From Nocardioidaceae bacterium (GTDB taxonomy: Bacteria > Actinomycetota > Actinomycetes > Propionibacteriales > Nocardioidaceae), in NCBI GenBank assembly GCA_013361955.1, contig JABFXA010000001.1:1-39011 (forward strand): DNA of 39,011 nt, read 5' to 3'. Positions 9,035 through 13,331 of the stretch are shown one piece after another. Each line of letters starts with the position of its first letter. Positions within the stretch are counted from its first letter, which is position 1. The notes below the pieces were generated by a model that made no database searches, had not been told where the DNA came from, and saw only the letters and a program-made list of their open reading frames with translations. A program made the translations under genes and the position numbers.

Positions 9035-9792
9035 TTCCGGCTCATCGGGTCGACGGTCCCGTCGGCGCGCCGGTGGTGTTCCTCGGCAACTCGCTCGGCA
9101 CGACGTGGGAGATGTGGGACCCGCTGCTGCCGGCGCTGTCGGCCTACCGCGTGGTGCGCTTCGACGCGCGCGGGCACGGGCGGTCCGACGTACCGCCCGG
9201 GCCGTACACCGTCGGCGACCTCGCCGGCGACGTGGTCGAGCTGGCCGACGAGCTGGAGGTGCCACGGTTCGCGTTCGTGGGCCTGTCGCTCGGCGGTGCC
9301 GTCGCGCAGGAACTGTGCGTGGCCCGGCCCGACCTGGTGTCCGCGGCGGTGCTGTGCTGCACGGTGCCGAAGTTCGGCGACCCGGCGACGTGGCACGAGC
9401 GCGCCGCGTCGGTGCGGGAGTCGGGGATGCAGGTGCTGGCAGAGGCGACGAAGGGCCGGTGGTTCACCGACGCCTTCCGGGAGACGTCGCCCGAGACCGT
9501 CGACCGGATGATCGCGATGCTGACGTCGACGCCGCCGGACGGGTACGCCGCCTGCTGCGAGGCGCTGGCCACCTTCGACTCGTGGTTCGCGCTGCCGTCG
9601 GTCGGCGCACCGGTCCGGGTGGTCGCCGGCGCCGACGACCCGGTCGCGACGCCCGCCGTGTGCGAGGAGATGGCGTCGGTGATCCCGGGCGCCGACCTCG
9701 TCGTCGTACGCGACTGCTCGCACATCGCGCCGGTCGGGCAGCCCGAGGCGTTCGCCCGGGCGGTCGTCGAGCACCTGGAGAAGCACCTGTGA
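9031..9792 (+). CDS. pcaD: 3-oxoadipate enol-lactonase
   Basis: This 253-aa alpha/beta hydrolase hydrolyses beta-ketoadipate enol-lactone to beta-ketoadipate. Visible triad: Ser86 in GLSLGG, an aspartate in GADDPVATP (about 202), and His231 in CSHIAP. The GTG start overlaps the pcaB stop (GTGA). In many actinobacteria this activity is fused to the carboxymuconolactone decarboxylase as PcaL; here the two are separate genes that overlap by four bases. Confidence 0.92.
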   Translation: MIPAHRVDGPVGAPVVFLGNSLGTTWEMWDPLLPALSAYRVVRFDARGHGRSDVPPGPYTVGDLAGDVVELADELEVPRFAFVGLSLGGAVAQELCVARPDLVSAAVLCCTVPKFGDPATWHERAASVRESGMQVLAEATKGRWFTDAFRETSPETVDRMIAMLTSTPPDGYAACCEALATFDSWFALPSVGAPVRVVAGADDPVATPAVCEEMASVIPGADLVVVRDCSHIAPVGQPEAFARAVVEHLEKHL

Positions 9793-10148
9793 GCGACCAC
9801 GAGGAGGGCATGCGGGTGCGGCGCGAGGTGCTCGGCGACGAGCACGTCGACCGGGCCGTCGCCGGCACCACCGAGGTGACCGCGGAGTTCCAGGACCTGA
9901 TCACCCGCTACGCGTGGGGCGAGATCTGGACCCGCCCCGGCCTGGCCCGCCGCGACCGGTCGATCGTCACCCTCACCGCCCTCGTCGCCGGCCGGCACTT
10001 CGACGAGCTGGAGTTCCACCTCGAAGCCGCGCTCCGCAACGGCCTCACCAAGGAGGAGATCGTCGAGGTGCTGCTGCAGACCGCGATCTACTGCGGCGTC
10101 CCCGCCGCCAACTCCGCCTTCGCCGTCGCCAACCGCGTCCTCCGGTGA
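9789..10148 (+). CDS. pcaC: 4-carboxymuconolactone decarboxylase
   Basis: This 119-aa protein of the CMD/AhpD fold decarboxylates gamma-carboxymuconolactone to the enol-lactone. Conserved blocks are GEIWTRPGLARRDRSIVTLT, the L-x-FH segment (ELEFHLEAALRNGL) and LLQTAIYCGVPAANSAF. GTG at 9789 overlaps the pcaD stop and a GGAGAAG lies upstream. It is the last pca gene. The final base of its TGA stop is also the first base of the tandem repeat array that follows. Confidence 0.93.
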   Translation: MSDHEEGMRVRREVLGDEHVDRAVAGTTEVTAEFQDLITRYAWGEIWTRPGLARRDRSIVTLTALVAGRHFDELEFHLEAALRNGLTKEEIVEVLLQTAIYCGVPAANSAFAVANRVLR

Positions 10149-10266
10149 CGCCGAGGCGCGCGTCGTTGCGGTGAGAAGTACGCCGAGGCGCGCGTCGTTG
10201 CGGTGAGAAGTACGCCGAGGCGCGCGTCGTTGCGGTGAGAAGTACGCCGAGGCGCGCGTCGTTGCG
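10148..10266. repeat. Left array: four copies of a 32-bp tandem repeat
   Basis: Copies begin at 10148, 10180, 10212 and 10244. Each has a 23-base core starting ACGCCGAGGCGCGCGTCG and ending TTGCG, and the first three are followed by the 9-base linker GTGAGAAGT; the fourth is core only. All four cores and all three linkers are identical. The array starts on the last base of the pcaC stop and ends 53 bases before the ATG of the nuclease-like gene. The same unit recurs in inverted orientation after that gene (11302-11388). Confidence 0.95.
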
Positions 10267-10319
10267 GGCTTGTGGACGACGTCGGACGTCGGCCCGTCCG
10301 ATCGGGCCAGCCTGTCGGG

Positions 10320-11300
10320 ATGACGATCTGGACGCCTCGGCAGGGCCAGCCATTCCTCGACGCCTCGTTCCCGCTCCCGCTCGACCGGCCTTTCACGCGA
10401 CAGCACGCCCTGGCTTCGGGGATCACCCCGTGGGTGCTGCGTCATCTCGTGGACGTGGGACTGGTCCGCCGCCTCGTCCGAGGGGTGTACGTGGCGGCGC
10501 AGGTCGTCGACTCCGTGCCGATGCGGGCGCGGGCGCTGTCGCTCGTCGTACCGCGGACCGCGGTCGTCACCGACTGGACCGCCTGCTGGTTCTGGACCGG
10601 CATCGACGCGCCAGGTGCGCACGAGCGCGCACCCGAGCTGTATGTGTTCCACCGGAATCCGCATACCCGGCTCCACAACGGTCTGAGCATCGGCGGCGCG
10701 CGCAGCTTCAGCCCCGGTGACCTGGTCGTCGTGGAGGGCGTCTCGCTGACGTCGCCGCTCCGCACGGCGTGCGACATCGGCCGGCTCTTCCACCGCGACC
10801 GGGCGATCGGTGCGATCGACGCTCTGCTTCGGCACGGCACCTTCGACCTGGACCATCTCGTGCTGGAGGTGGAGCGCTTCAAGGGGATGCGCGGTGTCCG
10901 CCAGCTGCGAGCCCTGGCTCCGCTCGCCGACGCCCGCGCCGAGTCACCCGGCGAGTCGACCCTGCGGCTGCGGTGGCTCGACGAGTACACACTGCCGGCG
11001 CCGACTCCGCAGGTTCCGATCATCGTGGACGGCGTCGAGGTGTACCGCATCGACCTCGGTGTGCCCGAGCTCCGCTACGGCTGCGAGTACGACGGCGCGC
11101 TGCACCACGGCCCCGGCCAGAAGGCGAAGGACCGCGCGCGGCTGAAGGACCTGTTCGAGCGCTTCGGCTGGGACGTCGAGCCGGCCCGCCGACGCAACGT
11201 GTTCGGGCCGACCCGCGACGTCGAGGAGATGCTGCACGACGGCGTCCGCCGCAACCGGCTGCGTGCCGGCCTTCGCGCCTGGCCGTACGACGCGGCGTGA
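10320..11300 (+). CDS. AbiEi-like / DUF559-type putative nuclease flanked by repeats
   Basis: The 326-aa protein has an N-terminal part resembling the AbiEi-type winged-helix region of actinobacterial proteins (FTRQHALASGITPWVLRHLVDVGLVRRLVRGVYV, 25-58, then VVTDWTACWFWTG) and a C-terminal part resembling DUF559/Vsr-like PD-(D/E)XK nucleases: Glu212 (GEST), Asp245 (YRIDLGVPE) and Glu256-Tyr-Asp258 (CEYDG), followed by KDRARLKDLFERFGWDV. These residues are consistent with a metal-dependent nuclease site. An earlier in-frame GTG at 10272 is possible. No toxin partner is adjacent. It is bracketed by inverted tandem-repeat arrays, which suggests it may recognise or maintain the repeats; that is inference. 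Confidence 0.8.
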   Translation: MTIWTPRQGQPFLDASFPLPLDRPFTRQHALASGITPWVLRHLVDVGLVRRLVRGVYVAAQVVDSVPMRARALSLVVPRTAVVTDWTACWFWTGIDAPGAHERAPELYVFHRNPHTRLHNGLSIGGARSFSPGDLVVVEGVSLTSPLRTACDIGRLFHRDRAIGAIDALLRHGTFDLDHLVLEVERFKGMRGVRQLRALAPLADARAESPGESTLRLRWLDEYTLPAPTPQVPIIVDGVEVYRIDLGVPELRYGCEYDGALHHGPGQKAKDRARLKDLFERFGWDVEPARRRNVFGPTRDVEEMLHDGVRRNRLRAGLRAWPYDAA

Positions 11301-11301
11301 C

Positions 11302-11388
11302 CGCAACGACGCGCGCCTCGGCGTACTCCTCACCACAACGACGCGCGCCTCGGCGTACTCCTCACCACAACGACGCGCGCCTCGGCGT
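11302..11388. repeat. Right array: three inverted copies of the same 32-bp repeat
   Basis: Cores at 11302-11324, 11334-11356 and 11366-11388 are the reverse complement of the left-array core, again with a 32-bp period. The linker is ACTCCTCAC (left-array equivalent ACTTCTCAC), and two cores begin CACAACG rather than CGCAACG. The array starts one base after the nuclease-gene stop; its last base is the final base of the minus-strand VWA gene's TGA stop. Confidence 0.95.
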
Positions 11389-13331
11389 CAACGGGGGCCA
11401 CCACGGCGGGCGCGGAGGTAGTCGGCGACGACGTACTCGCCGAGGCGGGACAGGTCGGGGGTGAAGACGCGGCCACCGGCGCGGCGGGCGACGGCGTCGA
11501 CGAAGCGGGCCAGGCCGGGGTCGTCGCCGAGCATGAAGAAGTTCAGCGCGGCGCCGTAGCGGGTCAGCTCGTCGACCTGGCCGACGGTGGCGCGCAGCGT
11601 CTCCATCGTGGTCGGCCACTGGAACACCGGGAACCCGTCGGAGGCGATGTGCGCGGTCGGCTCGCCGTCGGTGACCACCATGATCACCGGCTCGGCGTCG
11701 GGGTGCCGGCGCAGGTGCCGGGCCGCGATCATCAGCGCGTGCTGCAGGTTCGTGCCCTGCACCCACTCGGGCTCGACGTCGGCGAGCTGCACCGGCGAGA
11801 GCCGCCGTGCGGTCCGGTCGAAGCCGATGATCTCCAGCGCGTCCTGCCGGAACCGGGTCGCGACCAGGTGCGACAGCGCCAGCGCGGTCTGCTTCATCGG
11901 ACCCCAGCGGCCCTCCTGCACCATCGAGAACGACAGGTCGACGCACAGCGCGACCGCGGCCGTCGTACGCCGCTCGGTCTCGACCACCTCGAAGTCCTCG
12001 ACCATCAGCGTCGCAGGCATGGAGGAGCCGCGGCGCAGCGCGTTCGACACCGTCCGCACCGCGTCGATGGGCAGCTCGTCGCCGAACACCCACGGCCGTG
12101 TCGTGCCCACCAGCTCGTCGGCCGACCCGGTGCGGTGGTCCTCGTGGTCGCCGGTGCCGTTCGCGTCGAGCTGCGCGAACACCCGCTTCAGCGCCGTCTC
12201 CCCCAGCCGACGTACGGCGCGGGGGGTCAGCCGGAGCCCGTCGTCGCCGCGGGTCACGAACCCCTGCCGCTCGAGCTCGCGCTCCAGCTCGCGCAACGCC
12301 CGGAAGTCGGCCGCCGCGGACGCGCCGAGGTTCCGCTCGAGCGCCTCCACGTCGACGTCGTCGAGGGTGGCGCCGGCGTGCGTCTGCGCCAGCGACTGCT
12401 CCAGGGCCTCCAGGTCGGCGAGCTCGGCGACCGCCTCCACGGCGTCGCTGTAGCCGAGGGAATCGCCGCCCTCGCGCATGTTCACCGGCCCCCGGTTCAT
12501 GCCGGGCCGCAGCGCGCGCAGGTTGTCCGAAAGCTGCGCCATCTGCGAGGCGAGGTCGGGGTCGCTCAGCGCGTCGCTCATCAGCTGGCCGAGCTGCTGG
12601 CGCTGCTCCGGCGACAGCGACGCGAGCATCCGGTCGGCCGCGGCCTGCCGCCGCGCCAGCGCGTCGATGAGCTCGTCGACGTTCTGCGGGTTCTCCGGGA
12701 ACAGGTCGCCGTGCTTGTCCATGAACTCCCGGAACCGGTCCTCGGTGTCCTCCCCCCGCGCGTGCGCGGCGAGCAGGTTGTTGAGGTCGGCGAGCATGTC
12801 CTTGACGGCCTGCATCGCCTCGGGGTCCTGGTCCTGCAGCAGCCGCTTCATGCCGGCGAACTGCGCGTCGAGCACCTCGCTCTGCAGCATCTGCTGGATC
12901 GACTCGTACGTCGCGCGCGCCTCGTCGGAGTGCCAGTCGTACGGCGCCAGCGCGCGCACCGCGCCGGCGGTGTCGTCGGGGAGCGTCGCGAGCTCCATCT
13001 CGTTCCACCGCGCCGCGTCGGTGTCCTCGGAGGCGAGCTGGTCGCGCTCCTGTGCCAGCGCCTGGTCGAGCGCCGCGCGCACCTGGTCGAGCGTGCCGCC
13101 GAGGTCGCCGCGCCGCCGCGCCGCGTTGCGCATCTGCCGCACCCGGGCGGCGAGGTCGTCGAGCCCGCGGTTGCCGTCGAACCCGCGCCGCAGCAGGTCC
13201 GACAGCGCCTCTCGCAGCGACCCGCCGGAGAGCACGTCGCGGCCCACCTCGTCGAGCGCCGCGCGGACGTCGTACGGCGGGGCGAGCGGGTCGGGACCGT
13301 CGTGCCAGGGGCCGTAGCGGAACCGCGACAT
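11388..13331 (-). CDS. VWA-domain protein (partner of AAA+ ATPase)
   Basis: This 647-aa protein has a long, mostly helical, charged N-terminal region and a C-terminal von Willebrand factor A domain. The metal-ion-dependent adhesion site is complete: D465-x-S467-x-S469 (VDLSFSM), Thr527 in QGTNL and Asp555 in TDGEP. Pairing with the upstream AAA+ ATPase resembles the ChlI/ChlD and MoxR/VWA systems, in which the ATPase remodels or inserts metal into a client. No client gene is obvious here. The start is one base after the ATPase stop. The stop codon coincides with the end of the right repeat array. Confidence 0.88.
   Translation of the reverse strand: MSRFRYGPWHDGPDPLAPPYDVRAALDEVGRDVLSGGSLREALSDLLRRGFDGNRGLDDLAARVRQMRNAARRRGDLGGTLDQVRAALDQALAQERDQLASEDTDAARWNEMELATLPDDTAGAVRALAPYDWHSDEARATYESIQQMLQSEVLDAQFAGMKRLLQDQDPEAMQAVKDMLADLNNLLAAHARGEDTEDRFREFMDKHGDLFPENPQNVDELIDALARRQAAADRMLASLSPEQRQQLGQLMSDALSDPDLASQMAQLSDNLRALRPGMNRGPVNMREGGDSLGYSDAVEAVAELADLEALEQSLAQTHAGATLDDVDVEALERNLGASAAADFRALRELERELERQGFVTRGDDGLRLTPRAVRRLGETALKRVFAQLDANGTGDHEDHRTGSADELVGTTRPWVFGDELPIDAVRTVSNALRRGSSMPATLMVEDFEVVETERRTTAAVALCVDLSFSMVQEGRWGPMKQTALALSHLVATRFRQDALEIIGFDRTARRLSPVQLADVEPEWVQGTNLQHALMIAARHLRRHPDAEPVIMVVTDGEPTAHIASDGFPVFQWPTTMETLRATVGQVDELTRYGAALNFFMLGDDPGLARFVDAVARRAGGRVFTPDLSRLGEYVVADYLRARRGGPR

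Follow-up and report, generated by a model that had tools for sequence, protein, structure and literature searches.

A nuclease gene between inverted arrays of its own dispersed repeat suggests a REPIN-RAYT-like enzyme-repeat pair in actinobacteria

Why does a putative nuclease gene lie between two inverted arrays of the same short tandem repeat? The arrangement occurs in a 39,011-nucleotide stretch (the whole of which is called the window here) of contig JABFXA010000001.1 from a Nocardioidaceae bacterium, where an earlier sequence-only reading described four identical repeat copies to the left and three inverted copies to the right of one gene, all with a 32-bp period. The coordinates bear this out. 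The left array (10148..10267, + strand, period of 32 bp) holds four identical 23-base cores (10148-10170, 10180-10202, 10212-10234, and 10244-10266) with the 9-base linker GTGAGAAGT, and the right array (11302..11388, − strand, period of 32 bp) holds three inverted 23-base cores (11302-11324, 11334-11356, and 11366-11388) with the linker GTGAGGAGT. In both arrays, the tag end of the unit points outward. The cores had been called near-identical, and indeed one of the three right-hand cores is identical to the left-hand ones, the other two having a single-base difference; the two arrays are 94-96% complementary. The bracketed gene (10320..11300, + strand) has an ATG start and encodes 326 amino acids, and the right array starts one base past its stop. 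We propose, with a probability of roughly 0.6, that gene and repeat are the two halves of an enzyme-repeat pair, organized like REPIN-RAYT systems.

Bracketing of this kind is general among homologs of the gene. We took the best inverted match between the left and right flanks of each homolog, with a threshold score of 20, and used shifted intervals of equal size in the homolog loci as the control. In the first homolog set, 27 of 31 loci were bracketed (1 of 32 was dropped at a contig end), compared to 0 of 1047 shifted intervals and 3 of 31 loci in the direct orientation. Further paralogs were bracketed in 13 of 20 cases (shifted, 0/715), as were 62 of 76 loci in a set of titled records (from 80, less 4 at contig ends; shifted, 0/5223; direct orientation, 5/76), although several of the latter are the same places as in the 31-locus and 20-paralog sets, and the sets therefore overlap. 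A class-wide set comprised 30 loci, 3 of which had been examined earlier; with 2 of the 27 tested loci lying at contig ends, 18 of 25 were bracketed (5/7 in the gene's own family and 13/18 in other families; shifted, 0/717). The gene family itself is widespread, with profile matches in 159 of 197 genomes sampled from the class. The bracketing test is conservative: two loci, L065 and L249, fall short of it, yet reading by eye reveals arrays on either side of the gene (in L249, the arrays enclose a neighbor gene). Mispairing the left flank of one locus with the right flank of another gave scores of at least 20 in 13/930 and 212/5700 cases. This control is less clean than that of the shifted intervals; its top scorers in the first set are presumably loci with a common neighbor gene or related repeats.

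The repeat is present at 10148..11388, as the earlier reading had it, but it is not confined there. A 21-base core with up to 3 mismatches has 91 matches in the gene's own genome (46 forward and 45 reverse), whereas the same pattern read backwards has 2 (1 + 1). A 20-base form with at most one mismatch has 64 matches in this genome versus 1 in 57 relatives, six of which are of the same genus. Altogether, seven repeat types were found to be dispersed in the genome of their own gene: that of the window, that of a second gene in the same genome, three from same-genus species, and two from other genera. In the following counts, the reversed-pattern control is given in parentheses, and genomes and loci carry our G and L numbers (G000 is the genome of the window). 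The repeat of the second gene (L032, 42% identity) has 94 (2) matches in its own genome and no more than 6 in any of eight others. The G003-type repeat has 157 (4) in G003, 273 (2) in G005, 30 (2) in G002, and 20 (3) in G006, with at most 4 in seven others, and the G001 type has 47 (0) in G001 and at most 4 in ten others. The G019 and G012 repeats have 22 (0) and 66 (1) matches in their respective genomes, with at most 1 and 3, respectively, in eight others. The G004/G006 type has 183 (60) in G004, 185 (34) in G005, and 140 (28) in G006; in eight other genomes, it is near or below the control, the highest counts being 44 versus 42 in G002 and 22 versus 20 in G025.

G005 and G006 have two homologs apiece, with different repeats. 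As each of the two G006 homologs lies between its own repeat, the repeat follows the gene and not the genome. In the protein tree, the first G005 and G006 homologs form a clade with the window gene (support, 100/99), and the second homologs form another (92/62). Protein and unit distances were correlated across 82 loci (Mantel r = 0.33; P = 0.003), a modest value that ignores gene sharing by descent; six loci, two with internal stops and four short, had been left out of the protein-distance set. By protein part, the correlation was 0.32 for residues 81-200, 0.25 for 1-80, and 0.20 for 201-326. The sequence-only reading had named two findings that would speak against it, a common dispersed repeat without a link to the gene family and close relatives of the gene without such repeats. 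Neither occurred: the repeat is dispersed yet tied to the family, and the relatives mostly carry arrays, each of a different repeat.

To compare the units themselves, arm segments from 84 loci were aligned on a YGA seed, with control segments treated alike. The outer end of the units is CGYYGASNSGKCRC, with 11.95 bits versus 6.94 in the controls. Beyond the seeded YGA, a G four bases on (96%) and a C two further (82%) stand out, both unseeded, and the common outer tag of the units reads CGYYGA. At least one detectable array was found in 83 of 101 loci versus 3 of 194 control windows, and the period corresponds to whole helical turns (21-22, 31-33, 42-44, 52, or 63-64) in 127 of 137 arrays, some periods of 44 possibly being two units of 22. 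When the period classes (assigned by hand) are mapped on a 76-protein tree, at least 14 changes are needed, compared to a mean of 30.2 when shuffled. Fixed spacing, a free linker, and whole-turn periods suggest that protein molecules sit next to one another along a single face of the DNA.

The dispersed elements have a recurrent layout. Among the 19 loci read in the window's genome, an element often consists of two units, a short center (4-34 bases in 18 loci), and two inverted units, with the tag end outward. An orientation scan of 53 dispersed loci in three genomes found both orientations in 30, and in 27 of these, every forward unit precedes every inverted one; the remaining 3 (L001, L013, and L015) have a stray weak match 220-330 bases off. 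The layout recurs in the second repeat family of this genome, for which 20 loci were read: the order is right in 20/20, both arms are present in 12/20, and the spacing is 22 in 93 of 99 neighboring unit pairs. In collecting the 65 units at the 19 loci, as many as 5 mismatches in 21 were allowed, a limit that somewhat favors core conservation; core columns 1-12 carry the majority base in ∼99% of cases and all 22 columns in ∼92%, and the 9-base linker has 0.03-0.32 bits per column. Linkers had been thought to be homogenized within each array. This holds at the gene (GTGAGAAGT versus GTGAGGAGT) but not at the 19 dispersed loci, where differences at variable positions are 0.55 within an arm and 0.53 between loci. 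Among 25 linkers, 17 pairs from different loci are alike in at least 7 of 9 positions versus 4.5 in column shuffles, and since this exceeds the shuffles, some units have likely been copied from one another.

Positions of the elements are hardly shared between the three species compared. When the flanks of 20 loci in G000, 17 in G001, and 21 in G003 were compared, one strong common neighbor (L023/L236) was found besides the nuclease gene; three more matches, at 29-34% identity, were taken for paralogs. The gene and its arrays adjoin a VWA gene in G000, G002, G004, G005, and G006; in G003, G001, and G025, reading by eye of 700 bases next to the VWA gene showed neither.

The gene had been described as a putative nuclease gene of the DUF559/AbiEi type, with E212, D245, E256, and D258 as its PD-(D/E)XK residues, and both descriptions stand. 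The predicted fold joins an AbiEi-antitoxin-like part (approximately residues 1-204) to a nuclease of the Vsr/homing endonuclease type (approximately 207-315), the catalytic domain having the Vsr/I-Bth0305I fold in the predicted structure. The residue numbering is correct. In an alignment of 29 sequences, the window protein included, E212, E256, and D258 never vary, and the conservation of D245 is 90% or higher. Eight proteins gave Pfam matches to AbiEi, MTES_1575, and DUF559 models, along with two weak unrelated ones, and no transposase model was among them. In NCBIfam, nothing rose above the cutoffs for the eight proteins; the lowest E values belong to weak, partial matches (one of them to 20 residues of an IS66 accessory protein).

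REPIN-RAYT systems are described as a gene flanked by inverted copies of its own repeat, which has a tag at its end and recurs across the genome as pairs around a short center, with different repeats for different genes (PMC3733652, PMC8049555). Passages of the former place both REP superfamilies in other phyla, and the word Actinobacteria is absent from its text (PMC3733652). Our locus shares the bracketing by an inverted cognate repeat and, for seven types, the dispersal of cognate repeat pairs in the same genome. The enzymes differ, as the RAYT is a Y1 HUH tyrosine transposase and the protein here is AbiEi-like and Vsr/homing endonuclease-like. The repeats differ as well: REPs are single hairpins, whereas the units here form phased tandem arrays, mostly 21-33 bp apart, and their outer end at the 84 loci is CGYYGASNSGKCRC instead of the GTAG tag. 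By enzyme, tag, and array architecture, the pair falls outside the RAYT definition; its organization is that of REPIN-RAYT. Rows of protein sites in helical phase are also known from Tn7-type transposon ends and plasmid iterons, which the arrays resemble as these are generally described; general profile scans of the window neighbors and the eight proteins matched neither a transposase nor a replication initiator. Among the matches listed in a search of open-access papers by title and abstract start, with most subscription papers and preprints outside its scope, there was no description of such a gene-repeat pair. The usual bracketing, each gene with its own repeat version, and the dispersal of the versions tested suggest an unrecognized enzyme-and-repeat partnership.

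At the level of sequence, then, these comparisons demonstrate a pairing of gene and repeat, with a common tag, a common spacing, and conserved nuclease residues. The sequence-only reading had gone further in casting the nuclease as the maintainer of its own repeat, in parallel to REP/RAYT; the pairing is borne out, and we infer the maintaining role, which would include binding, cutting, and copying. Most likely, the protein reads and processes its own repeats and is built from parts unrelated to those of REPIN-RAYT. The alike linkers and the hardly shared sites are indirect signs that the enzyme may duplicate repeat pairs. In the mechanism that we envisage, the AbiEi-like part would bind the units side by side on one DNA face, and the converging arms would bring the nuclease domains together. 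A nick or break at the arms could then be repaired in a way that duplicates units locally, copies arms to new intergenic sites, and keeps the cores alike, with the elements at gene ends being tolerated or used by the host.

Several observations weigh against this reading. Bracketing fails, with scores below 20, in 4/31 and 14/76 loci, and other genes are also enclosed by arrays in G003 (L213, positions 2064-2976, and L208). No gene matching the G003-type repeat was found in G002, and the Mantel correlation, as said, is modest. The turnover of positions rests on three genomes, between which one neighbor gene (L023/L236) is shared. A clean empty site was not found, the neighbors at the one site compared being different in G001, G003, and G025, and no insertion was captured in the genomes compared. 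Finally, a conserved core with a free linker is also expected from selection on binding sites.

The main rival is selection on the sites for a chromosomal role, which may act jointly with repeat processing. On its own, such selection would make the arrays binding sites of an AbiEi-type regulator or chromosome organizer, serving, for example, as gene-end roadblocks or bidirectional terminators, with the nuclease domain tasked elsewhere. The conserved core and spacing, the free linker, and the whole-turn periods all agree with this, as does the siting of the elements. In the window's genome, 27 of 37 array ends (one of them, at a contig end, admitted under a looser criterion) are no more than 40 bases from a stop closing a long open frame, versus 390 of 3800 random positions. 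With gene strands called by codon-position GC rather than annotation, the neighbors of 48 of the 53 dispersed loci could be assigned as convergent (18), tandem (28), or divergent (just 2), and ten elements folded as RNA had z scores of −5.4 to −11. However, a regulator alone would leave unexplained the conserved nuclease residues, the alike linkers at different loci, and the hardly shared positions, and arms lying 1 kb apart around the gene cannot form a single terminator. We consider this explanation, taken by itself, unlikely.

A homing-type element is less probable again. The nuclease would cut gene-less sites of converging arrays, into which the gene and arrays would be copied, and the gene-free elements would be targets or remnants. 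The catalytic fold would suit such a role in part, I-Bth0305I being a homing endonuclease that we take to be of the EDxHD type. However, the gene here is free-standing and intergenic, adjoining three stop codons, and is found neither inside an intron nor interrupting a target gene; the mismatch-repair context of Vsr was not seen either. At least 19 and at least 20 gene-free loci of two repeat families coexist with their genes in this genome, which argues against homing because continuous homing would cut or fill such loci. The genome has one copy of the window gene, besides paralogs at 42% and 29% identity. Phage records gave no match, and one record of a plasmid collection matched weakly; phage or plasmid cargo was set aside on the same grounds.

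We regard as very improbable a defense or toxin-antitoxin-like system whose AbiEi-like part would tether the nuclease to its own arrays, the arrays serving as a mark of self. The predicted AbiEi fold and the PADLOC AbiEi models that match the window protein (best E value, 1.7e-8) are in keeping with it. In AbiE terms, however, the protein differs in being joined to a nuclease domain and in having arrays on both sides and dispersed, and such a system does not predict that arrays are dispersed or copied. The AbiEii partner was not among the three neighbors scanned (CMD, VWA_2, and AAA families), and an AbiE toxin-antitoxin system was therefore set aside. That an ordinary gene fell by chance between copies of an unrelated dispersed repeat, as the few other bracketed genes of G003 (L213 and L208) might hint, can be dismissed, given zero hits among the shifted intervals of all four locus sets and the cognate pairing in seven repeat types.

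The enzyme-repeat pair may have a wider compass, which we put forward tentatively, at somewhat less than even odds. AbiEi-nuclease fusions, which probably number in the thousands in actinobacteria and now go under the names of antitoxin-like or DUF559 proteins, would be independently evolved repeat-keeping enzymes, each reading, cutting, and propagating private, helically phased repeats, with expression perhaps tied to replication via a DnaA-box-like site. If so, unrelated parts have given rise to the REPIN-RAYT pattern for a second time, a role and a DNA target can be assigned to a gene family common in actinobacteria, and many intergenic repeats of these genomes would be explained. Most of the genes have a candidate binding site on both sides; the targets can thus be read from genomes, which makes recognition rules, cleavage, and repeat turnover directly testable.

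The putative DnaA-box-like site lies between the left array and the gene start, as TGTGGAC (10271..10277, + strand) within a CTGTGGAYRAC-like motif whose resemblance to a DnaA box is our assumption. TGTGGAY, usually inside CTGTGGAYRAC, is found upstream of the match start, at a distance of up to 200 bases, in 76 of the 98 homolog loci. Control windows have it in 32 of 1492 cases, and the downstream side has it in 6 of 98 loci; in L250, the matches fall inside the repeat itself. Such a site as a general part of the dispersed elements received no support, as GTCCAC is patchy or absent in their centers (6/18 in the window family, with a background of 0.9% and three of the six sharing one center; 0/12 in the second family; 0/11 in G003).

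Around the locus, the TGA stop of an upstream CMD-family gene (10146..10148, + strand) shares its last base with the first base of the outermost left unit, and the TGA stop of the convergent VWA gene (11388..11390, − strand) does so with the outermost unit of the right array. Elsewhere in this genome, 14 of 37 array ends overlap a TGA by one base in the same register. A CRISPR array was set aside, as the linkers are 9 bp long and identical inside each window array, unlike unique spacers of ∼30 bp. A known RNA family was likewise set aside, with zero Rfam matches at 9700-11800.

Some loci depart from the common form. In G003, the arrays of L213 enclose an RDD-like gene and those of L208 two genes, all named by eye only; L208, L211, L214, and L217 have more imperfect palindromes between the arms, of the form GCAACGAGCGCGCA...GTTGC, possibly another repeat family. 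In G001, elements L224, L225, L227, L229-L232, L235, and L236 have hybrid arms, one of the CGACCCGGCTCGAACCTCCC type and the other CGAGTCGGCGCGTCTTGCCC-like, as if the repeats of two enzymes had been joined. In the flanks of L070, L074, L184, L186, L187, L286, and L348, the place of tandem arrays is taken by a unit, a common GGCGTGTC-like stretch, and an inverted unit. A different tag, TGATCATGCA or near, was seen in the flanks of L350, L351, and L356-L360 (families f12, f31, f33, and f43); an unspecific search of the open-access literature for this tag gave, among the matches listed, no title on such repeats. The distant paralog in the window's own genome (L033, G000:C163; 29% identity) is flanked by GGTAGTCCGGAACGTTTCGCAGG-like repeats unlike the YGA tag. 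Outside the gene's own family, L367 and L371-L373 (families f17 and f20) have high inverted and direct scores alike and seem to have, instead of tandem arrays, a self-complementary REP-like hairpin on each side.
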